From NCBI RefSeq assembly GCF_022524345.1, contig NZ_JAKWJU010000002.1:3813501-3877500 (forward strand): a DNA stretch of 64,000 bases, read 5' to 3'. The translations under genes were made by a program, and so were the position numbers. The notes below the pieces were generated by a model. The model was given only the letters and a program-made list of their open reading frames with translations, was not told the DNA's origin and ran no database searches. Below, one piece after another: positions 28,377-41,061 of this stretch. Numbering within the stretch: the first letter of the stretch is position 1; each line of letters begins with the position of its first letter. This DNA comes from Streptomyces marispadix (GTDB lineage: Bacteria > Actinomycetota > Actinomycetes > Streptomycetales > Streptomycetaceae).

Positions 28377-30905
28377 ATGTTCGAGAGGTTCACCGACCGC
28401 GCGCGGCGGGTTGTCGTCCTGGCTCAGGAAGAAGCCCGGATGCTCAACCACAACTACATCGGCACCGAGCACATCCTCCTGGGCCTGATCCACGAGGGTG
28501 AGGGTGTCGCCGCTAAGGCACTGGAGAGCCTCGGGATTTCGCTCGAGGCGGTCCGTCAGCAGGTGGAGGAGATCATCGGCCAGGGCCAGCAGGCCCCCTC
28601 CGGCCACATCCCCTTCACGCCCCGTGCGAAGAAGGTCCTGGAGCTGTCGCTCCGCGAGGCCCTTCAGCTCGGCCACAACTACATCGGTACGGAGCACATC
28701 CTGCTCGGCCTGATCCGCGAGGGCGAGGGCGTCGCAGCCCAGGTCCTCGTGAAGCTGGGCGCCGATCTGAACCGGGTGCGGCAGCAGGTCATCCAGCTGC
28801 TCTCCGGCTACTCCGGCGGCAAGGAGGCGGCGACGGCCGGCGGCCCCGCCGAGGGCACGCCCTCGACCTCCCTCGTCCTGGACCAGTTCGGCCGCAACCT
28901 CACGCAGGCCGCCCGCGAATCCAAGCTCGACCCGGTCATCGGGCGCGAGAAGGAGATCGAGCGGGTCATGCAGGTGCTCTCGCGCCGTACGAAGAACAAC
29001 CCGGTGCTCATCGGCGAGCCCGGCGTCGGCAAGACCGCGGTCGTCGAGGGCCTGGCCCAGGCGATCGTCAAGGGCGAGGTGCCCGAGACCCTGAAGGACA
29101 AGCACCTCTACACCCTCGACCTGGGCGCGCTGGTCGCCGGCTCCCGCTACCGCGGTGACTTCGAGGAGCGCCTGAAGAAGGTGCTCAAGGAGATCCGCAC
29201 CCGCGGCGACATCATCCTGTTCATCGACGAGCTGCACACGCTGGTCGGTGCGGGCGCCGCCGAGGGCGCGATCGACGCCGCGAGCATCCTCAAGCCGATG
29301 CTGGCCCGCGGTGAACTCCAGACCATCGGCGCCACGACGCTCGACGAGTACCGCAAGCACCTGGAGAAGGACGCGGCCCTCGAGCGCCGCTTCCAGCCGA
29401 TCCAGGTCGCCGAGCCGTCGCTGCCGCACACCATCGAGATCCTCAAGGGCCTGCGCGACCGGTACGAGGCGCACCACCGCGTCTCGATCACCGACGCCGC
29501 CCTGGTCGGCGCGGCCACGCTCGCCGACCGCTACATCTCCGACCGCTTCCTCCCGGACAAGGCGATCGATCTGATCGACGAGGCCGGTTCCCGTATGCGG
29601 ATCCGCAGGATGACCGCGCCGCCGGACCTGCGCGAGTTCGACGAGAAGATCGCGAACGTCCGCCGGGACAAGGAGTCGGCGATCGACTCGCAGGACTTCG
29701 AGAAGGCCGCCTCGCTCCGTGACACGGAGAAGCAGCTCCTGGCGCAGAAGGCCAAGCGGGAGAAGGAGTGGAAGGCAGGCGACATGGACGTCGTCGCCGA
29801 GGTCGACGAGGAGCTGATCGCGGAGGTCCTGGCCACGGCCACGGGCATCCCGGTCTTCAAGCTCACCGAGGAGGAGTCCTCGCGACTGCTGCGCATGGAG
29901 GACGAGCTGCACAAGCGCGTCATCGGGCAGGAGGACGCCATCAAGGCGCTCTCCCAGGCGATCCGGCGTACGCGCGCCGGGCTGAAGGACCCGAAGCGCC
30001 CCGGTGGTTCGTTCATCTTCGCGGGCCCGTCCGGCGTCGGTAAGACGGAGCTGTCCAAGACGCTCGCCGAGTTCCTCTTCGGCGACGAGGAGGCGCTGAT
30101 CTCCCTCGACATGTCGGAGTTCAGCGAGAAGCACACCGTCTCCCGGCTGTTCGGCTCGCCTCCCGGATACGTGGGTTACGAGGAGGGCGGCCAGCTCACG
30201 GAGAAGGTGCGGCGCAAGCCGTTCTCCGTCGTCCTCTTCGACGAGGTGGAGAAGGCGCACGCCGACATCTTCAACTCGCTGCTCCAGATCCTGGAGGACG
30301 GTCGCCTGACCGACTCCCAGGGCAGGGTCGTCGACTTCAAGAACACGGTCATCATCATGACGACCAACCTCGGCACCCGGGACATCTCCAAGGGGTTCAA
30401 CCTGGGCTTCGCCGGACAGGGCGACGTCAGCGCCGGATACGACCGGATGAAGGCCAAGGTCAACGACGAGCTGAAGCAGCACTTCCGTCCGGAGTTCCTC
30501 AACCGTGTCGACGACACGGTGGTCTTCCACCAGCTCACTCAGGACGACATCATCCGGATCGTCGACCTGATGCTGGCGATGGTGGACGAGCGGCTCAAGG
30601 ACCGCGACATGGGCCTGGAGCTGAGCACGGACGCCAAGGAGCTGCTCGCCAAGCGGGGTTACGACCCGGTGATGGGCGCCCGGCCGCTGCGCCGGACGAT
30701 CCAGCGGGAGATCGAGGACCAGCTCTCCGAGAAGATCCTCTTCGGTGATCTGCGTCCCGGTCACATCGTGGTCGTGGACACCGAGGGCGAGACCGACGAG
30801 GAGAAGAAGTTCACCTTCCGCGGTGAGGAGAAGGCGGCACTGCCGGACGCACCTCCGGTGGAGTCCGCTGCGGGCGGCGGCCCGAACCTCTCCAAGGAGG
30901 CGTGA
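28377..30905 (+). CDS. clpC: ATP-dependent Clp protease ATP-binding subunit ClpC
   Basis: Cytosolic Hsp100 unfoldase feeding substrates to ClpP, 842 residues, the usual length. Two Clp_N repeats (EHILLGL at about 26 and again about 101) cover residues 1-145. AAA1 has [16 protein letters not shown] near 216 and the FIDELH Walker B. The UVR/middle domain lies around 420-460. AAA2 has [22 protein letters not shown] near 550, LFDEVEKAH and the ClpP-contact segment, and the D2-small domain follows. The ATG is preceded by GAGGAGCGATT. Upstream ClgR-type sites suggest stress activation. The acidic C-terminus is [10 protein letters not shown]. Confidence 0.98.
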
Positions 30906-30953: not shown

Positions 30954-30990
30954 CTGCGCGCCGTGGCGGCACTGCCGCCACGGCGCGCAG
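30954..30990. terminator. Strong bidirectional terminator between clpC and the NACHT array
   Basis: A perfect 17-bp stem, CTGCGCGCCGTGGCGGC paired with GCCGCCACGGCGCGCAG, with a 3-nt loop lies 48 bases after the clpC stop and about 90 bases beyond the end of the convergent NACHT gene. It can stop transcription in both directions. Confidence 0.85.
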
Positions 30991-31082: not shown

Positions 31083-33797
31083 TCATCTGCCGGTGACGAT
31101 GATCCGTACGCCGTCGGGCACGTCGCTCACCGGCGGGAGACGCCGGTCCACCCGCAGGGACATCAGATGAGGGAAGGCGCTCAGCCACCCCATGCGCATG
31201 CCCGCTTCGAGATCGCACGAGAGCCACAGATGAGTGAGCCCGTCGGGCACCAGGCCGTCGACCAGCTCACCCGGTGTGAAGGGGCCGCCGATCTGCACCT
31301 GCGGACGTCCGCCGAGCTTGCGTAGCGCGGCCAGCTCCTGGCGGTCCCGTACGGGCAGGAAGAGCCCTTCCGGATTGAGGTGCCGGATGACTTCCTCCGC
31401 GTAGCGCTCGGTCTCGAAGTTCCGCCAGCCGCGGGCGAGTTCGGTGCGTACCTTCAGCGACTTCCGGTCACGTAGCCCGGCCAGATAGTCCACCGCGGCG
31501 TCGTCGTCGATGCGGGTCACCGTGAGCGCCAGACGGTACGCCTGCTCGTCCGAGACGGTCGCCGGGTCGGGGAGCATCTCCAGGACGATCGGACCCACGA
31601 AGCCGAGCCTGAGCGCGGAGTCGTCGTCGCTGGGCGAGACCAGGTTCCGGGTCTCGCGGCGTACGCGGGCATAGGTCTCCGGGTCGACCTCCGTGACGTG
31701 CTCCAGACAGGCGGCGGCCATCAGCCGCCGGCGCTGGCGCTTCATGCCGAGCGCACCGGGAGCCAGCAGACCTTGCAGCAGCATGGCGCACTCGGCGGGG
31801 CGGGCGTGGGCGACGGCCATGCGGATGACCTCTTCCCACTCCGGCTCATGGGCGTGGTCCAGCAGCAGATCGAGGTCGCCCTGTTCGACGATCTCCTTCG
31901 CCGCGAGGTAGTCCTGCACCGTGCGGTGTACGAACTCCACCGATCTGCCGGGCTGTTCGCGCAGCACCCCCGTACGCAGCAGCAGATGGTCGAGGATCTG
32001 CTCGGGGCATACGTCCTGCAATGCGACGGCGGGGATCGCGGTGGCGTACCTCTCGACCTCGCGCAGCGCGGTCCGGTGGTCGAGCACGGCGTGCCCGCCG
32101 ACGAGCATTCGATGGGCGAGCTTGCGCAACAGCCGTTCGCGGGGGGCGCGTTCGAGCTCGACGGGGTCCGCGTGCACGACCTGGCGTTCCGGGTCGCGGC
32201 GTTGCAGAAGCATCGCCATGGCGGCCTCGTACAGCTCCTTGCGGCCCTGGGGGAGGAAGCCCGCCCGGTCGACGTTGAGTGCGCAGATGAGGCCGCACAT
32301 CAGGGGGTTGGTGGCGAGGACGCGCAGTTCGCGGTGGAGGGGGATGGACCGCAGCAGCATGTCCCTGTAGCGGTCGAGCTGTGCGTCGGCGTCGTCGGAC
32401 CTGTCCATACGGGCGGCCGTGTGCCAGGCGGTGATGAAGGCCGCGACCTGGTCGCGGTTCATGGGGGCGAGGGTGAGTTCGGTGAAGCCGTCCTCGGCCA
32501 GCCAGTTGGGCTCCACGGCGGTGGGTCGGGAGGTGACGAGGCAGAGACTGCCGGGGTGTTCGCGCAGCAGGGGGCGCAACTGCTCGTGCAGCGCCCGCCG
32601 TTGGGGTTCGGGCACCTCGTCGATGCCGTCGATGAGGAGCAGTGCGCGCCCGGCGGCGAGTACGCGGGCGACCCAGCCTTCGGGCGCCTCGTCGGCGAGT
32701 TCGTGGCCCGCGACGGAGAGGAAGTCGCCGGGGGCGGGAAAGCCCTCCTCGGCGAACCGCCGTACGGGCAGCACGAACGGGATGCGGCTGCGCAGCCCTT
32801 GCAGCTCCTCCGGGAGGGCGGCGCCTGCCGTGGAGACGGCCAGCCACTGTATGACCGTGGTCTTGCCGGAGCCTGCCACTCCGCGCAGCAGTACCCGTTC
32901 GTGCCTGGCCAGTGCCTTCTCCGCGGTCATCACCGGGTCCACGGAGGCGGCCCCGGGCTCGGTGTCGCCGCCTTCCTCGTCCGGTGCGCTCGACGAGGTC
33001 GCCGAGGGTGTTGCGGGGGCCGAGAGCGCCGAGGTCGCCGAGGGCGTGGCGGGCGCCGCCGCGAGGGGGCTGAACTCCGCGGACAGGCTCAGATATGTGG
33101 CCTCCAGCGGCCAGTCGGCGGGCGTCGCGGGATTGTCGAGGTCTATGCCGCAGATGGTGATGCGGTCGTACTGCTCGATGACGTGCCGCAGATAGCGTTC
33201 CTCGAATTCGACGTCCTCGGCCGAGCGCGGGTCGCGGCTGGTGCTCGTGGCCTCCGCGTCGTTGAGTTCGACGAGTTCGCCGATGTGGTGGGCCTGTTCG
33301 GGGAGTTGCCCGGCGAGGCCGGGGGAGCGCTCCAGCAGCAGCCGGAGGAAGTGCAGGCATACGGCGGCCAGCAGCTCGTCGTAGAACCGGGCGGCCTCGG
33401 GGGAGAGTTCGCGGTCGGCTCCCGGCACGGCGGAGTGGAGGAGCTGTGCAAACGCGGGCGGCCCGAGCCGTACGGCCTCGGCGTCGGTGGTGTCGAGTTC
33501 GCCGGCGGCCCACAGCGTACGGGCGAGGACGCCGGCCGTGCCCGACTCCTCGGCGGCGGACAGCCGGTGCCCGGTGGCCCGCAGCCCGAGGTGGACCAAC
33601 TCCGCGGCCGTCTCGAACAGTTCGTCCCATCCGAGGGCCGGGTCCTCACCGCGGAAGGCCAGCAGATGCGCCATGAGCCGCCCCGAGCCGGACGACGGTG
33701 CGTCGGCGGCGGCCGAGGCGGGCACGAAGAGCGGGCCGATGAGCGGTTCGACGACGGCGGACGTGAGACGTACGACGGGTTCGGCGGGCTGTTCCAT
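31083..33797 (-). CDS. NACHT-domain NTPase, third in the tandem array (short LRR-like C-terminus)
   Basis: A 904-residue STAND ATPase. Start at 33797 (MEQPAEPVVRLTSAVVEPLI) fits the paralogues. Residues 1-210 are a helical N-terminal domain resembling the NNH class of bacterial NACHT proteins; ITICGIDLDN..WPLEATYLSL is the linker motif; a Thr/Ser/Ala/Pro insert follows. NACHT: Walker A GVAGSGKTT (306-314), Walker B LLLIDGIDEVP (387-397), sensor LCLVTSRPTAVEP, winged-helix part with ATNPLMCGLICAL and VEFVHRTVQDYLAAKEIV. An armadillo/HEAT-like helical region follows, ending in two LRR-like strands (GLTHLWLSCD, LMSLRVDRR). Likely an immune-type signalling ATPase by family analogy; ligand unknown. 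Confidence 0.88.
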   Translation of the reverse strand: MEQPAEPVVRLTSAVVEPLIGPLFVPASAAADAPSSGSGRLMAHLLAFRGEDPALGWDELFETAAELVHLGLRATGHRLSAAEESGTAGVLARTLWAAGELDTTDAEAVRLGPPAFAQLLHSAVPGADRELSPEAARFYDELLAAVCLHFLRLLLERSPGLAGQLPEQAHHIGELVELNDAEATSTSRDPRSAEDVEFEERYLRHVIEQYDRITICGIDLDNPATPADWPLEATYLSLSAEFSPLAAAPATPSATSALSAPATPSATSSSAPDEEGGDTEPGAASVDPVMTAEKALARHERVLLRGVAGSGKTTVIQWLAVSTAGAALPEELQGLRSRIPFVLPVRRFAEEGFPAPGDFLSVAGHELADEAPEGWVARVLAAGRALLLIDGIDEVPEPQRRALHEQLRPLLREHPGSLCLVTSRPTAVEPNWLAEDGFTELTLAPMNRDQVAAFITAWHTAARMDRSDDADAQLDRYRDMLLRSIPLHRELRVLATNPLMCGLICALNVDRAGFLPQGRKELYEAAMAMLLQRRDPERQVVHADPVELERAPRERLLRKLAHRMLVGGHAVLDHRTALREVERYATAIPAVALQDVCPEQILDHLLLRTGVLREQPGRSVEFVHRTVQDYLAAKEIVEQGDLDLLLDHAHEPEWEEVIRMAVAHARPAECAMLLQGLLAPGALGMKRQRRRLMAAACLEHVTEVDPETYARVRRETRNLVSPSDDDSALRLGFVGPIVLEMLPDPATVSDEQAYRLALTVTRIDDDAAVDYLAGLRDRKSLKVRTELARGWRNFETERYAEEVIRHLNPEGLFLPVRDRQELAALRKLGGRPQVQIGGPFTPGELVDGLVPDGLTHLWLSCDLEAGMRMGWLSAFPHLMSLRVDRRLPPVSDVPDGVRIIVTGR

Positions 33798-33940
33798 GGA
33801 GACGGGACTCCCGGCAGGGTGTTGGCATGTGGACGGGTGGGGGGGGGCCGCCGCATGACAGAGCGTCAATGTGCGTCAGGTCACTACGAGTTCAGCCTAT
33901 TCGGCGGAAGCGGCGCTCGGCCACGGGGTGGACGACGGGC

Positions 33941-36900
33941 TCACGGGCGCGGACGGGGGCGCACGGTGACGGACACGGATTCGCCGAAGGTGCGCTGGGC
34001 GGACTCCCGTACGTCGGGCGTCGGTTGACGCAGGTGCAGGTTGCGCAGACCGTGCAGCCGGGTCAGCGGTGTCAGATCGGTGCCGTACCAGGGGTTCAGA
34101 AGGGTGATCGACTCGGTCTCCGGGAAGTGCTCGGGGATCAGGCGAAGCCACGGCGCGGTCTCGTATACGCAGAGGAGGATGATGCTGCGCACTGTGGGCA
34201 ATGCCGGTCCACCGTCGAGGAGTTCGAGCATGCGGGAGTCGACCATCAGGTCCGACAGCCGGGGTAGTTCCGCGATCTCGGCCCAGTCGTTCGGGACCGA
34301 GGACAGGTCGACGATGTCGAGTTCGGTGAGGCCAGTGAACCGGGAGAGGCCAGCCAGCTCGCAGTCGGTGTTCTCCAGGGACAGCGATTCCAGCGACTCC
34401 AGAACCGGCAGCTCGTCGATGCGGAGCAAAGCGGGCTCCTGCAACAAGAGCTTCCGCAGGCTGGGCATCGACGGCAGGATCTGCGTCTCGTACATGTGAA
34501 GGGTGAGGGTGTGCAGCGGCACGTCCGCGAGGCGAGTGAGGTCCGGCACCTCCGGCGCGGCCAGTGTGAGTTCGGAAAGACGGCGAAACCGTGGGAGGAA
34601 GTCAAGGTCTCGGACCGACCTGTTCCCTGCGAGCCACAGTTCGGTGATCGCATCCTCCGGGAGCGCCTCGGAGATCTCCTCGGCCGTGAAGTCGCCGTGC
34701 AGGTACACCCGTGGCGGCGGCCCCATCCGGGAAAGCAGGCCCAGCTCTTCCTTCGAACGGACCGTGATCGGAACGTCTTCCCGGCTCAGTAGCGGCGCGA
34801 TGATCTCCCTCCCGTACGCCTCCGTGTCGAACCGGTCCCAGTGGCTTGCCAGTTGGCTCAGCACGCCCGGCCGGGAGTCGTCGCGGAACTCGGCGAGCCG
34901 CGCCAGCGCCGCGTCCGAGCCGAACTGCGCAATGGCGTGGGCAACGGCCTCCGCCTCGTCGTCCTCCAGCATCTCCGGGCCGGGCAGCAGCTCAAGCGCC
35001 ACCGGTCCCACTCCCGCGAGCGCCTTCGCCTCGTCGAAGCTGCGCGGTGGGAACATCGCCGCCGCCCGGAGCTCGACCTCCTCCCGTACCCGCGGGTCCA
35101 GGTTCGTGGCGTGTTCCAGGCAGGCTGTGGCCAGCAGATACAGCCTGATGCGCGGCTCCGGCTCCGCGTCGCCGCGCTCGATCAGGGTGCGCAGAATGCG
35201 CGCCCGCTCGTCGGGCCGGGCGTGGGCGACGGCCATCCGTACGACGTCGTCCCATTGGTCCTCGTGCGCGTGCCGTGCCAGCAGGTCGAAGTCCCGCTCC
35301 TGCACCAACTCCCGTGCGGCCAGATAGTCCTGGAAGGTGCGGTGTACGAAGTCGACGGCGCCGTCGACCGGTTCGCGCAGCAGCCCGGAGCGTACGAGCA
35401 GGAAGCGGAGGATGTCCTCGGGGGAGCCCTGTGCCTGTGCGTAGGGCATGGAGGGGAGCACCCGCTCCAGCAGCCCGACCGCGTCCGAACGCTCCATCTC
35501 CGCACGCCCGTTGCGGATCAGCCAGTACGCCAGCTTCTGGAGCAGCTCGGTCTGCGACTCGCCGTCGAGGTCGATGCCGCCGGGCGACAGCGAGCCCAAG
35601 TGCCGCTCGCGGTCGCGGCGTTCGAGCATCATGCTGAGCGCGGCGTCGTAGAGGGCCTTGCGGCCGCGCGGCAGAAAGCCGCGCCGCTCACGGTGCAGGG
35701 CGCAGATGAGGCCGCACATCAGCGGGTTGGTGGCGAGCCTCGCCAAGTCGGGCTTGACGCGCAGCTCTCCGAGCAGTGCCTCCTCCAACTCCCCTTCCAC
35801 CGCTGCCGCCTTGTGCCAGCGCCGTACGAAGACCGCCACGTCCGCGGGTCGCATCGCCGACAGCGACAACTCCGCGAACTTGTCGCCGCTCAGCCAGTCC
35901 TCGCTGACTGCTGAGGGGCGCGAGGTGACCAGAAGCCTGTTGCCCGGGAAGGCGGTGAGCAGGTCGCGAAGCCAGCGGCGGGTGCGTTCGCGGTCGTCCT
36001 CGGGTACCTCGTCGATGCCGTCGACGAGGATCAGGCCGCGCTCGGCCGTCAGCACCCGGCTCGCCCAGCCATGGGGCTGGTTACCGGCTAAGGGGCAGCC
36101 CACAGCGCCCAAGAAGCCCTCGGGAGCGGGGAGTTCGGCGCCGCCCCGGGCCAGGGTGCGCAGCGGCAGTACGAACGGCACCATGCCCGTGAGCCGGGTC
36201 AGCTCGCCGGTGAGGCGGTCCTGCCCGTCGTCCCCGGCCGTCGAGACCGCCAGCCACTGCATCAGCGTGGTCTTGCCCGACCCGGCCACTCCGCGCAGCA
36301 GTACGCGCTTGTGCCCGGCGAGGGCCTCGTCCACGCGCCGGGAGACCGGACGCCAGCCGTCGTGTGCGTCGTCGGCACCCGCCCAGGGGCCCGGCGCGGA
36401 GCGCTGCGTCACCTCCAGGTTCAAGTAGGCCGTGTCCAGGGGCCATTCGCTGGAGTGCTTCAGGTCGATGCCGTAGATGGTGATGCTGCTGTGCTTCTTC
36501 GCGACGTATGCCGCGTAGCGCTTCTCGAACGCCGCGTCCTCGCTCGTACGGGAGGCGAGCCGGGACAGCAACAGGTCGCTGCGGGCGACGAGTTCGGAGA
36601 GCTGGCGGCTCTGCTCGACGAGGGTGCGGGCGACGAAGGTGGAGCGCTGGGTGAAGAAGTGCAGGATGTGCAGGCACGCCGAGTCGAGCACGCGCTCGTA
36701 CAGGGCTTCCGAGGCGCTGCTGAGGGCGGAGGCGGGGGCGGGCCCCGCGTGCCCGGCCGCTTCCAACAGTGCGCGCTTCAGGGCCTGTTCGCCCAGTGCG
36801 ACGGCCTCTACGTCGTCCATCCGCAGGTCGCCGAGGGCGTGCAGGGTACGTACGAGAGCGTCGGTCACGGCCTCGGACTCGACGGGCTCGGCGTCCGCAC

Positions 36901-37117
36901 CGGTCCCCTCCGCGGCGCGCTTCACCAACTCCCTTACGAGCCTGTGCAGTTCCTTCTCGGACAGGGTGCGCTTCTCGCCTGTGAAGGACAGCAGCGACGA
37001 GATCCGTACCGGCTTCTCGGCCAGCCCCGCGCCCGGCCCCTCCTTCACGAACAGCTTCTTCACCAGCGGCATCACGGCACTCGACGCGAGCCGTGCCCCC
37101 ACCACTCCGGGTTCCAT
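33941..37117 (-). CDS. NACHT-domain NTPase with long leucine-rich-repeat C-terminus, second in the array
   Basis: The longest copy, 1058 residues. It opens MEPGVVGARLASSAVMPLVK and shares KLFV.EGPGAGL..RPVRISSL.SF.GE.RTL with the upstream paralogue. The helical N-domain spans 1-210; ITIYGIDLKHSSEWPLDTAYLNLE leads into NACHT: Walker A GVAGSGKTT (276-284), Walker B LILVDGIDEVP (362-372), LLVTSRPSAV, ATNPLMCGLICAL and VDFVHRTFQDYLAARELV. Residues ~560-820 are helical repeats. About 821-1050 hold some ten LRR-like units (ITELWLAGN, LSELTLAAP, LHTLTLHMY, LRKLLLQEP, LESLSLENT, LTELDIVDL), absent from the other copies. It starts 20 bp after the preceding NACHT gene stops, so they are co-transcribed. 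Confidence 0.9.
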   Translation of the reverse strand: MEPGVVGARLASSAVMPLVKKLFVKEGPGAGLAEKPVRISSLLSFTGEKRTLSEKELHRLVRELVKRAAEGTGADAEPVESEAVTDALVRTLHALGDLRMDDVEAVALGEQALKRALLEAAGHAGPAPASALSSASEALYERVLDSACLHILHFFTQRSTFVARTLVEQSRQLSELVARSDLLLSRLASRTSEDAAFEKRYAAYVAKKHSSITIYGIDLKHSSEWPLDTAYLNLEVTQRSAPGPWAGADDAHDGWRPVSRRVDEALAGHKRVLLRGVAGSGKTTLMQWLAVSTAGDDGQDRLTGELTRLTGMVPFVLPLRTLARGGAELPAPEGFLGAVGCPLAGNQPHGWASRVLTAERGLILVDGIDEVPEDDRERTRRWLRDLLTAFPGNRLLVTSRPSAVSEDWLSGDKFAELSLSAMRPADVAVFVRRWHKAAAVEGELEEALLGELRVKPDLARLATNPLMCGLICALHRERRGFLPRGRKALYDAALSMMLERRDRERHLGSLSPGGIDLDGESQTELLQKLAYWLIRNGRAEMERSDAVGLLERVLPSMPYAQAQGSPEDILRFLLVRSGLLREPVDGAVDFVHRTFQDYLAARELVQERDFDLLARHAHEDQWDDVVRMAVAHARPDERARILRTLIERGDAEPEPRIRLYLLATACLEHATNLDPRVREEVELRAAAMFPPRSFDEAKALAGVGPVALELLPGPEMLEDDEAEAVAHAIAQFGSDAALARLAEFRDDSRPGVLSQLASHWDRFDTEAYGREIIAPLLSREDVPITVRSKEELGLLSRMGPPPRVYLHGDFTAEEISEALPEDAITELWLAGNRSVRDLDFLPRFRRLSELTLAAPEVPDLTRLADVPLHTLTLHMYETQILPSMPSLRKLLLQEPALLRIDELPVLESLESLSLENTDCELAGLSRFTGLTELDIVDLSSVPNDWAEIAELPRLSDLMVDSRMLELLDGGPALPTVRSIILLCVYETAPWLRLIPEHFPETESITLLNPWYGTDLTPLTRLHGLRNLHLRQPTPDVRESAQRTFGESVSVTVRPRPRP

Positions 37118-37137
37118 GGTGGTCAGAGTACGGGTCG

Positions 37138-39841
37138 TCAGCCCCTGGAGGACATGTCGCTTTCACGCACAACTGTCAGATGGCGAGGGAGAGTTGACGT
37201 ATAGCGCGGTGCCGTCTCCGGCAGGACGAGCGTGTGCAGACGCGGGAAGGCCGACAGCCACTCCTGGCCGCCGTGACCATGACGCGCGTAGCCGTCGCGC
37301 AGCCACAGGTGGGTCAGTCTGCCGTGGTCGAGGTGCTCGAGAAGCTGGTCAGGGTGGTATCGGCCGACGATCTGCACGCGCGCACGGCCGCCCATGTCGC
37401 GCAGCGCCCGCAGATGGCCGGTGTGGTGAGCGGTGAAGTACAGGTCGGTCTCGTCGAGATGGGCGATGATCTCGCGGGCGTACTCGTCGGTGTCGAACCG
37501 GTGCCAGGCCCATACGAGTTGGCGGCGCAGCGCGAGCGACGGATGGCCGCGGAAGCGGGCGAGCACCGGCAGCGCCGCGTCCGTACCCGTGCGGGAGGCG
37601 GCGACGACCGCGCACGCCGCCTCCGCGTCGGTGAGCCCCTCGGGGCCGGGCAGCAGCCCGAGCAGCATCGGGCCGCCGATGTCGGCGACATGGCGGGCCG
37701 CGGACATGCTCCTGGGCGGGAAGAGCCGTGAGGTCCTGGCCTTGATCTCATGGCGTACGCGTGGATGGAGGTCCGTGGCCTGCTCAAGACAGGCGGCGGC
37801 CAGCAGCAGATTCCGCACGCCGGGACCGTCGTAGGCGACTTCGCCGGTCTCCTCGTCTCCGTCCGAACGCGCCGCAGTATTGCGCTGGTTGGGCACCGGC
37901 GACGGCCCCTCGGGCACACGCGCCACCAGTCCCCTCAGCAGCCGCGCACGGTCCATGCGGCCGCGCGTAGGCGACCGCCAGCCGGATCACGTCCTCCCAG
38001 TGGTCCTTGTGCGCGTTGTCCAGCAGCAGCGGGAAGTCGCCCTCCTCGACCGCGGCCTTGGCACCCAGCGCGTCCTGGAAGGTGCGGTGCACGAAGTCGA
38101 CGCGCCCCGCGGCCGGTTCGCGCAGCAGGCCCGTGCGGTCCAGCAGGTGCCGTAGCACGCGGCGCGGCCGGGCGTCCCCGGACTCCCCCGCGGCGCTCGC
38201 CGGGAGCGCGCGGGCGAGCTGGGCGACGGCGTCCTCCTCGTCCATCTCCGTACGGCCGTTGCGGATCATCCAGTGCGCCAGCCGTTGCAGCAGCGGGATC
38301 TGCGCGTCCTTCGTCAGCCGGAGCCCTTCGGGCACCGGCACGTATCGCTCGCGGTCGCGGCTCTCCAGCAGCATCGACAGCGCCGCGTCGTAGAGATCCG
38401 TACGGCCGTAAGGAAGGGTCCCGCGACGCTCGCGGTGCAGCGCGCAAAGCAGGCCGCACATCAGGGGGTTGACGGCGAGGCGGCCCAGATCGGGGCTGGT
38501 GCGCACGGCCGTGACGAGGTCGTCGGCCAGCCCCGGTTCCGCCTCCGTCGCGCCGTGCCAGCGCCTGATGAACGCCGCCACGTCGTGACGCGACATCGGC
38601 GAGAGCGACAGCTCCGTGAAGCCTGCCCCGGCCAGCCAGTTCTCCGGGACCGCCGACGGACGGGACGTCACCAGCCACAGATTGCCCGGGAAGTCGGCGG
38701 CCAGCTCACGCAGCCAGCGCCGCGTCTCCTCCCGCCGCTCCGCCGGAATCTCGTCGACCCCGTCGACCAGCAGCAGCGCACGGCCCGCGCTCAGCACCCG
38801 GTCCGCCCAGCCGGGCGGCTGCGCACCGGCGAGGCCGCTGTGCACGGCGTGCAGGAAGCGCTCAGGGGAGGGCAGGCCGTCGCGGGCGATGCGGCGCAGC
38901 GGCAGCACGAACGGGACGCGGCCCAGCAGATGCGTCATCTGCTCGTCGTAGTTCTGCCGTGCCGCGGTGACGGCCAGCCACTGCATCAGCGTCGTCTTGC
39001 CGGAACCGGCGGCTCCGCGCAGCAGCACCCGGTCGGAGCCCGCGAGTACGCGGTCGGCGGGGAGCGGGGCGGCGGCCCTCAGCGGTTCGCGGCGCCCGGC
39101 ACCGTGGCTGCCCTCTTCCCCGGCGCCGCTTCCGTCACCCTGCGGGTCCTGCGTCGCCTCCAGCGGCACATACGCGACGTCGAGGCGCCACTCGCGGGTG
39201 TGGCCCAAGTCGACGCCGTAGATGGTCAGTTCGCCGTGCTTACGTGCCATGTGCTCGGCGTAGCGCTGTTCGAAGCGCATGTCCTCGGAGGAGCGCGCGG
39301 GTATGCGCTCCAGGAGCAGATCCGTGGTGCTGATGAGGCGTTCGAGCTGCTGCGTCTGCTCGGCGAGCGTGCGCGGGATGAACGTCGAGCGCCTGCTGAA
39401 GAAGTCCAGGATGTGCAGGCACGCCGTGTGCAGCAGCGGCCTGAACTGCGCCTCCGCCTCTGCCGAGAGCGAGCGCGGGCGGGTCAGCAGCCTGGCCAGC
39501 CCCTCGGGCCCGAGGCGTACGGCCTGTACGTCGTCCATGTCCAGGTCGCCGAGGCTGTGCAGCGCCACGGCCAGGGCGTCGGCCAGCTCACGACGGGTCT
39601 CCTCGCCGGGGCCCTCGTGCGGGCCGGCGGCCTGTGCCGCACGGTCCGTCAGCTCCGCGGCCAGCCAGCGCACGTCCTTCTCGCCGAGGGTTCGCTGCTC
39701 GCCCCTGAAGGACACGAGCGACGAGATCCGTACCGGTCTGTCCGTCAGCCCCGCTCCCGGGCCCTCCTGCACGAACAGCTTCCTGACGATCGGTCCGACC
39801 GCCGCGGAGGCGATTCGCATGGCGATCGTGACGGGCTCCAT
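37138..39841 (-). pseudogene. NACHT-domain NTPase, first in the array, split by a +1 frameshift near 37955
   Basis: From ATG at 39841 (MEPVTIAMRIASAAVGPIVR) the frame encodes the helical N-domain (KLFVQEGPGAGLTDRPVRIS), Walker A GAAGSGKTT (276-284), Walker B LLLVDGVDEIP, LVTSRPSAVPENW, AVNPLMCGLLCAL and VDFVHRTFQDALGAKAAV. At residue ~628 (AVAYARPH) homology leaves this frame, which ends out of register at 37784. It resumes in the next frame at MDRARLLRGLVARV and runs to 37138 through the helical repeats and a short C-terminus like the third copy (RLTHLWLRDG, LHTLVLP). Comparison with the middle copy (VAHARPDERARILR) indicates one extra base. No homopolymer is at the site and no ribosome binding site precedes the internal ATG. 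Either a real mutation, a sequencing error, or a two-protein arrangement. Confidence 0.82.
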
Positions 39842-40332: not shown

Positions 40333-41061
40333 ATGTCGAAGACGCCCAAGAACGCGCACAAGCCCCGTGGTCGCACCAGGGTCGCCGTAATAGCGACCGG
40401 GCTGGGAGCCTCGGTGCTGCTGGGCGCGGGCTCGGCTGTCGCCGCCCACACGGACGGGCAGGGCGACGTCTTCGCGTCAGGAACCGCTACGCAGCTCGCC
40501 GACTCCGCACGCGCTCAGGCACATGAGCAGCACCAGGAGGCCCTGGCGAAGAAGAAGGCCGAGCAGCGCGCCAAGGACCGCAAGGCAGACCGGGGTTCGC
40601 GTGCCGCCGACCGCGAGGGCGGCGTGAAGAAGAACGCCAACGCCTGGACGAAGCCCGTCTCCGGCAAGTACGAGCTGAGCGCCGGCTTCGGCAACAGCGG
40701 CGGCCGCTGGGCGCACAAGCACTCCGGCCAGGACTTCGCGGTGCCCACGGGCACTCCTGTGAAGGCCGTACACGGCGGCACCGTCGTCAAGGCGGGCCCG
40801 AACGGCGCCGGCGACGGCTCCTCGTACGGCAACGCCATCGTGATCAAGCACGAGAACGGCACGTACTCGCAGTACGCGCACCTGTCGAAGCTGAACGTAA
40901 AGTCCGGCCAGAAGGTCGAGACCGGCCAGAAGATCGGCCTGTCGGGCTCGACGGGCAACTCGTCCGGTCCGCACCTGCACTTCGAGATCCGCAGCACCCC
41001 CGACTACGGATCCGGCAAGGAGCCGATCGAGGTCATGCGCTCGCACGGCGTGAAGGTGTGA
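40333..41061 (+). CDS. Secreted M23 family metallopeptidase (LytM/lysostaphin fold)
   Basis: A 242-residue exported cell-wall endopeptidase. The N-terminus has a long n-region, the hydrophobic stretch VAVIATGLGASVLLGAGSAV and an AxA cleavage site (VAA-H). A Lys/Arg/Ala-rich coiled segment (about 55-98) follows. The catalytic M23 domain has the zinc ligands in HKHSGQDFAVPTGTPV (H..D) and SSGPHLHFEIR (HxH). GGAGG precedes the ATG. It would cleave peptidoglycan cross-bridges during growth or remodelling. The leader may hold regulatory RNA. Confidence 0.93.
   Translation: MSKTPKNAHKPRGRTRVAVIATGLGASVLLGAGSAVAAHTDGQGDVFASGTATQLADSARAQAHEQHQEALAKKKAEQRAKDRKADRGSRAADREGGVKKNANAWTKPVSGKYELSAGFGNSGGRWAHKHSGQDFAVPTGTPVKAVHGGTVVKAGPNGAGDGSSYGNAIVIKHENGTYSQYAHLSKLNVKSGQKVETGQKIGLSGSTGNSSGPHLHFEIRSTPDYGSGKEPIEVMRSHGVKV

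Follow-up and report, generated by a model that had tools for sequence, protein, structure and literature searches.

The array beside clpC

Why does a Streptomyces chromosome hold three related NACHT ATPase genes in a row beside clpC, and do their products act alone or upon one another? The question is raised by a 64,000-nucleotide stretch (the window) of the 6.7 Mb genome of Streptomyces marispadix, whose closest named relatives at the clpC locus are Streptomyces. A preliminary description had placed three adjoining minus-strand NACHT genes at 31083-39841, next to clpC and separated by 20 and 143 bp, and this was borne out. The genes, here called A, B, and C, lie with their parts and the borders of the slot as follows (positions in the window).

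28377..30905, plus strand: clpC, fixed border of the slot
30954..30990, no strand: perfect hairpin of 17 bp where A and clpC converge with their 3' ends (177-nt stretch, z -3.5)
31083..33797, minus strand: gene A, NNH1-NACHT protein of 904 aa that has lost the N-terminal motif and ends in a short C-terminal part lacking a full LRR (Pfam); alternative start, TTG at 33869, minus strand
32415..32897, minus strand: NACHT ATPase of A (Pfam, residues 325-485)
33258..33773, minus strand: NNH1 domain of A, degenerate (Pfam, residues 33-204)
33941..37117, minus strand: gene B, NNH1-NACHT-helical repeat-LRR protein of 1058 aa (Pfam, AlphaFold2 model)
33944..34768, minus strand: LRR end of B, residues 784-1058, fast-evolving (internalin LRR sequence matches, strand repeats in the model)
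35807..36307, minus strand: NACHT ATPase of B (Pfam, residues 271-437)
36566..37099, minus strand: NNH1 domain of B (Pfam, residues 7-184)
37004..37042, minus strand: near-invariant N-terminal motif of B, EGPGAGL..KPVR, residues 26-38 (family alignment)
37138..37956, minus strand: gene C, piece 2, in another frame, 272 aa, remainder of the C-terminal half (alignment)
37784..39841, minus strand: gene C, piece 1, NNH1 and NACHT with the motif intact, 685 aa up to a stop past the frame break (Pfam)
40333..41061, plus strand: M23 peptidase gene, which borders the slot on its other side

The order of transcription is C (39841 to 37138), B (37117-33941), and A (33797-31083). The gap between B and C is 20 bp and that between A and B 143 bp, given that A starts with the ATG at 33797, and from these sizes we infer a single C-B-A transcript. 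The hairpin at 30954-30990 is a candidate for a two-way terminator, which is possible at this place; a terminator scan that requires a T run found none, the promoter scan was likewise empty, and no RNA families or tRNAs were found in the window.

Domain composition and predicted structure

Chance domain matches are excluded, because NNH1 (PF22733; 95.3 bits in A, 176 in B, and 170 in C, cut-off 27) and NACHT (PF05729; 92.4, 101, and 109 bits, cut-off 26.7) both score far above the Pfam cut-offs in all three proteins, and the N-terminal helical domain is of the NNH type. The proteins possess the NACHT ATPase that marks bacterial NACHT and NLR proteins, its Walker A and B motifs included, and a full LRR sensor end is found in B alone, A and C ending short. 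The earlier claim of an LRR-like end in every copy stands for B only, and that of three whole genes stands for A and B. A frameshift near 37,960, which the claim had missed, interrupts gene C; its alignment to B holds to C residue 628 and resumes in the other frame. Its counterpart is one frame in Streptomyces sp. HNM0575 (L085), S. abyssalis (L086, where the contig begins within the gene), Streptomyces sp. WMMB 322 (L087), and S. iconiensis (L088). Gene C looks broken in this strain, which may reflect either a genuine disruption or an error in the sequencing, and its two pieces were kept separate in all analyses.

The AlphaFold2 model of B (54 sequences, mean pLDDT 83.6) is laid out as a helical NNH1 domain, NACHT, a helical region, helical repeats, and an LRR end from about residue 784. 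The best solved folds for full-length B by E-value are NLRC4 (2.3e-17), then NOD2 and NLRP3, at TM-scores of only 0.27-0.36, as expected with flexible multi-domain chains. An NLR fold is predicted for B from this model, and the domains together with the predicted fold support the proposal that these are NLR-type receptors in which the helical N-terminal domain is the only candidate effector. NNH1 alone gave no Foldseek match under E 1, and a second search returned middling helical matches only. The beginning of B is conserved yet unpacked, which fits a part acting after activation: residues 1-50 are at pLDDT below 50 in the full-length model, as are residues 1-36 and 41-44 in a model of the N-terminal part, and G29, A30, P36, V37, R38, S44, and F45 are among the most conserved columns of the family. 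Relatives occupying the same slot lend weight to the N-terminal position as the place of the effector, for they have a trypsin-like domain there in 9 of 9 scanned cases. Charge and amphipathicity of the first helix were rejected as a simple marker, and no claim is built on them, because motif-less rows have a lower mean charge (2.1 vs. 3.1) but no lower hydrophobic moment (0.48 vs. 0.40).

Occupancy of the slot in the genus

A similarity search with C found 150 named loci, of which the best 79 were taken; clpC is present in 56 of these and clpC or the M23 gene in 62. An even sample was taken to avoid this similarity bias: clpC was found in 59 of 60 genomes of the genus, and the DNA beyond its 3' end was read. 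The M23 gene was seen in 53 of the 59 stretches and a NACHT gene in 32, with NNH1 in 21, without it in 10, and with both types in one. A trypsin-like N-terminal domain was found in 8 of 8 scanned slots of the 10 lacking NNH1, and in the second gene of the mixed slot; the remaining two (L187, L219) group with the trypsin types in the tree and look damaged. Slots with two such genes number just 2 among the 59 (L169, L173), which makes arrays like the present one the exception. No NACHT gene is found in 27 slots, 10 of which have a small minus-strand ORF beside clpC; acid phosphatase (PF03767) was recognized in all five of these ORFs that were scanned (L165, L171, L175, L189, and L211). An ORF of similar size sits between the two NACHT genes of L169, the slot of L192 holds a peptidase S13 gene, and short remnants of the family adjoin clpC in G005 and G016.

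Beyond the slot, an NNH1 match was obtained in 232 of 392 genomes of the genus and none in 160 (8 candidates scored per genome), and a class-wide sample had NNH1 in 16 of 28 genomes of the same genus vs. 9 of 268 others. The S. marispadix genome has a fourth NNH1-NACHT gene off the slot (L003, C2 6177270-6180329), which forms a long branch in the chassis tree. It also encodes a NACHT protein of the same chassis that is 44% identical to B (L223:4486-8202, C2 about 5464485-5468201); its roughly 270 N-terminal residues are without a Pfam match and may represent a third effector type. Phage-borne relatives were looked for in viral_contigs, a weak test, and none were found.

Lineages and rates of change

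The chassis tree (443 columns, 144 rows) was built by a quick method with SH-aLRT support only and long-branch warnings on some rows. The preliminary description had called for a phylogeny of the three copies across Streptomyces, and this one places them in different clades: A, B, and C each group with counterparts from other species and not with one another, and a recent tandem duplication is rejected on this ground. The 16 rows of trypsin type, those with neither NNH1 nor the L223 N-terminus, form one clade (SH-aLRT 100). Ongoing swapping of effectors at the slot is hence unsupported, and the exchange looks old. The order C, B, A also occurs in L087, and in L088 with additional sequence separating C from B; gene B is missing from L085 and L086, where C and A are present, and L089 has C only.

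A conserved N-terminal domain and a diverging C-terminus had been proposed for the set as a whole, and this pattern was found for B but not for A. B is 78% identical to its L087 counterpart in NNH1 and 46% in the LRR end (55% and 34% against L088), and the dN/dS of the LRR end against L087 is 0.66. In A, the two parts diverge about equally, NNH1 and C-end identity being 82/86% against L085, 67/66% against L086, 61/59% against L087, and 53/63% against L088, with 63/89% between the A counterparts of L087 and L086. All dN/dS values are simple Nei-Gojobori counts. The NNH1 core of A is at 0.22 against L085. Five pairs of motif-less genes are at 0.04-0.24 over the whole gene, so that A as a decaying pseudogene is ruled out. 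In the trio shared by L161 and L239, the motif-less gene is 97% identical and has the lowest dN/dS (0.09), its upstream partner has 0.26, and the LRR gene (L161:12356-15391, L239:11665-14694) has 0.40, with LRR ends 51% identical. These LRR ends have a dS of 0.83, as against 0.17-0.54 elsewhere in the gene, which hints at DNA exchange there. The diversification of receptors that had been suspected is therefore seen, by identity and dN/dS, in the LRR-bearing genes only.

Invariant, syntenic genes evolving at housekeeping rates had been named as what would speak against an immune role, and on this point the evidence is mixed. The locus is syntenic in the genus, yet its occupancy is patchy; A and C are about 82% identical to L085 vs. 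99.8% for clpC, and they change no faster than the neighboring accessory genes (M23 87%, TetR 87%, MFS 83%). The comparison with clpC alone does not show an arms race, because these nearby genes change as fast.

Loss of the N-terminal motif and pairing

The N-terminal motif had been noticed in two copies, which is correct; the meaning of its absence from the third, A, had been missed. Of the complete NNH1 receptors that fall outside the A clade, 142 of 142 retain the core of the GPGAGL...PVR motif. In an alignment with 114 rows from outside this clade, G29 and A30 are kept in 113 and R38 in 110. A reads PASAAADAP in place of EGPGAGL. A wrongly chosen start codon is an unlikely cause, both flanks of the motif being aligned. 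Among the best database matches listed, with complete N-termini and the own protein excluded, 96 of 113 relatives of A keep at most three of six motif positions vs. 0 of 115 relatives of B (102 of 120 vs. 1 of 119 in the raw lists, which include truncated proteins). The Walker A and B residues are retained in the motif-less group.

Gene neighborhoods were read in a set of best DNA hits to A in 392 genomes and a few known tandem loci, which leans to A-like genes. The pooled set comprises 188 distinct NNH1 rows, after exclusion of 5 duplicate loci, 1 identical row, the trypsin types, and rows with a short chassis. It contains 44 members of the A clade; the N-terminus is complete in 39, and the motif is lost in 32 of these 39. 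An NNH1 gene lies just upstream on the same strand in 28 of the 32 motif-less rows, the other 4 being alone, and in 0 of the 7 motif-bearing members (Fisher p 2e-5, kinship uncorrected). Independent contrasts of loss number 2 when well supported and 4 on the best tree, so few that a sign test has no power. The upstream gene is within 300 bp in 25 of the 28 rows, and in L255 as well; among the 30 upstream distances in these rows, 16 are of 4-100 bp and 5 are overlaps, with ORFs taken from the first possible start. Two of the 28 were counted by a rule of their own: L086, whose neighbor has its N-terminus and motif cut by the contig end, and L255, whose neighbor is in two frames. Tandem life alone does not erode the motif, as 46 complete rows outside the A clade have a motif-bearing neighbor and retain their own.

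The complete motif-less rows without a neighbor are L217, L230, L231, and L233, the last at a contig edge, and the five N-terminally short members of the clade, which were left out, all scored as motif-less and had no neighbor. L256 and L263 count against strict pairing, because their arm is visible and they are motif-less and alone. L231 and L256 look like orphans, since a single NNH1 match was found in each genome (G391 and G069; 8 candidates scored per genome). Slot and pairing are also partly confounded, because three of the seven motif-bearing members (L243, L257, and L258) have no clpC in their loci.

Rows were further compared at matched NACHT identity (75-85%), using 124 motif-less rows (at most 4 of 6 motif positions, mostly database proteins) and 241 motif-bearing ones. 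Arm identity is 54% in motif-less vs. 70% in motif-bearing pairs, and C-end identity is 69% vs. 37%, the latter figure being soft because LRR ends of non-orthologues align roughly.

A proposed division of labor and its alternatives

It is proposed that the array encodes NACHT receptors of NLR plan, likely phage-sensing, in which the work is split between motif-bearing members and the motif-less A, a reading from sequence that we would believe about as readily as doubt. Sensing and execution would both fall to the motif-bearing members, B here and also C in genomes that have it whole. Their LRR end may bind a phage or host signal. NLRs assemble into rings, and such an assembly would here be driven by ATP; the N-terminal arm, a helix with the GPGAGL motif, might then act on the membrane or seed the oligomer, and its action would stop growth or kill the cell. 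Having presumably lost an executing tip of its own, A would work together with the product of the gene just upstream, perhaps entering the ring of this neighbor as scaffold, co-sensor, or tuner. Such a division of labor predicts a gene with an arm and a fast-changing LRR and a constrained gene without arm or full LRR, in fixed order. As in a sensor/helper pair, the array sets unlike NLRs side by side, one of them without the N-terminal motif, and a division of labor like that of sensor/helper NLRs is plausible, with few independent losses behind it. Anti-phage action would be expected by analogy with tested bacterial NACHT proteins and from the patchy, fast-evolving occurrence of the family.

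If instead each protein acted alone, A would have a different active tip and adjacency would amount to tandem storage of receptors. The lone motif-less members (L217, L230, L231, L256, and L263) agree with this, and so does A itself, whose NNH1 core is still recognized and under purifying selection. Independent receptors are opposed by the upstream NNH1 gene of 28 of the 32 complete motif-less clade members, against none of the 7 motif-bearing ones, and by an arm that is less conserved in motif-less than in motif-bearing pairs; we consider this explanation unlikely. A could also be a decoy without motif that poisons or limits the assembly of its neighbor instead of helping it, as intact ATPase motifs, a short C-end, a lost arm, and the lowest dN/dS of the L161/L239 trio would allow; such a brake appears improbable, for a motif-less gene that stands alone would lack a partner to hold back. 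That the proteins are developmental or programmed-death switches of the mycelium instead of phage sensors is very improbable: the nearby clpC and lsr2 would suggest a part in stress or silencing, the chromosomal slot is fixed in the genus, and NNH1 is mostly found there, yet the NACHT gene is missing from 27 of 59 slots, 160 of 392 genomes are without an NNH1 match, and LRR ends change fast.

Comparison with known systems

The proposed division of labor can be set beside several described systems. In the account given for bNACHT proteins such as bNACHT25, an N-terminal effector place is followed by a central NACHT and a C-terminal sensor, and NACHT proteins with LRRs are noted to be encoded by bacteria; the four bNACHT proteins that it names belong either to clade 6, with a nuclease, or to clade 14, in which an effector domain is not readily made out (PMC12169576). 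The array proteins have the same three-part plan and differ from the bNACHT proteins, as far as that account describes them, in NNH1, an LRR end in one copy, a tandem arrangement with a motif-less member, and a fixed slot. Among plants, the NRC-dependent sensors are described as lacking the MADA motif of their helpers (PMC6944444). On the reading proposed for the array, an N-terminal helix motif would in both cases be kept in executors and lost in the partners that rely on them. The likeness is one of working plan, without a shown sequence relation: the array has NACHT and not NB-ARC, and its motif-less member is without a full LRR and strongly conserved, for which reason the terms "sensor" and "helper" need not have exact equivalents in it. 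NAIP/NLRC4 are described as NACHT receptors working as unlike pairs (PMC9975940). B resembles NLRC4 in predicted fold, whereas no CARD was found in the array proteins, and their pairing is putative.

Another bacterial NLR-like immune system, as reported, is the CARD-NLR-like system of Caulobacter (PMC13236601). Closest to the array are the trypsin-NACHT-LRR proteins, which share a homologous chassis and the same slot and are 35-40% identical to B; they differ in a trypsin-like domain that replaces NNH1 and in their separate clade (SH-aLRT 100). No meaningful match was obtained in PADLOC-DB (Avs and other systems), where one of four proteins gave two short P-loop hits, and the EruA cut-off (NCBIfam NF058535) of 1000 was not reached by A (31.7 bits) or C (21.3 bits). 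In the open-access literature, no paper on the clpC slot or on such NLR pairs was found among the matches listed.

Implications

A more specific form of the proposal is that these are paired NLRs of bacteria, in which an arm-bearing receptor diversifies its LRR and a conserved, armless NLR works only through it, within a slot resembling a plant R locus. It is put forward tentatively, with doubt outweighing belief. If it is correct, then the array would be a bacterial counterpart of the plant sensor/helper and animal NAIP/NLRC4 pairs, and cooperation of unlike NLRs, familiar from plants and animals, would have arisen in bacteria too. It would also have been found in a genetically tractable genus that offers natural knock-outs in the form of empty slots, lone genes, and the broken C. 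The analysis points to a short motif that could be removed to probe what it does in a bacterial NLR, and to a fixed locus at which the turnover of receptors can be read across a large genus.
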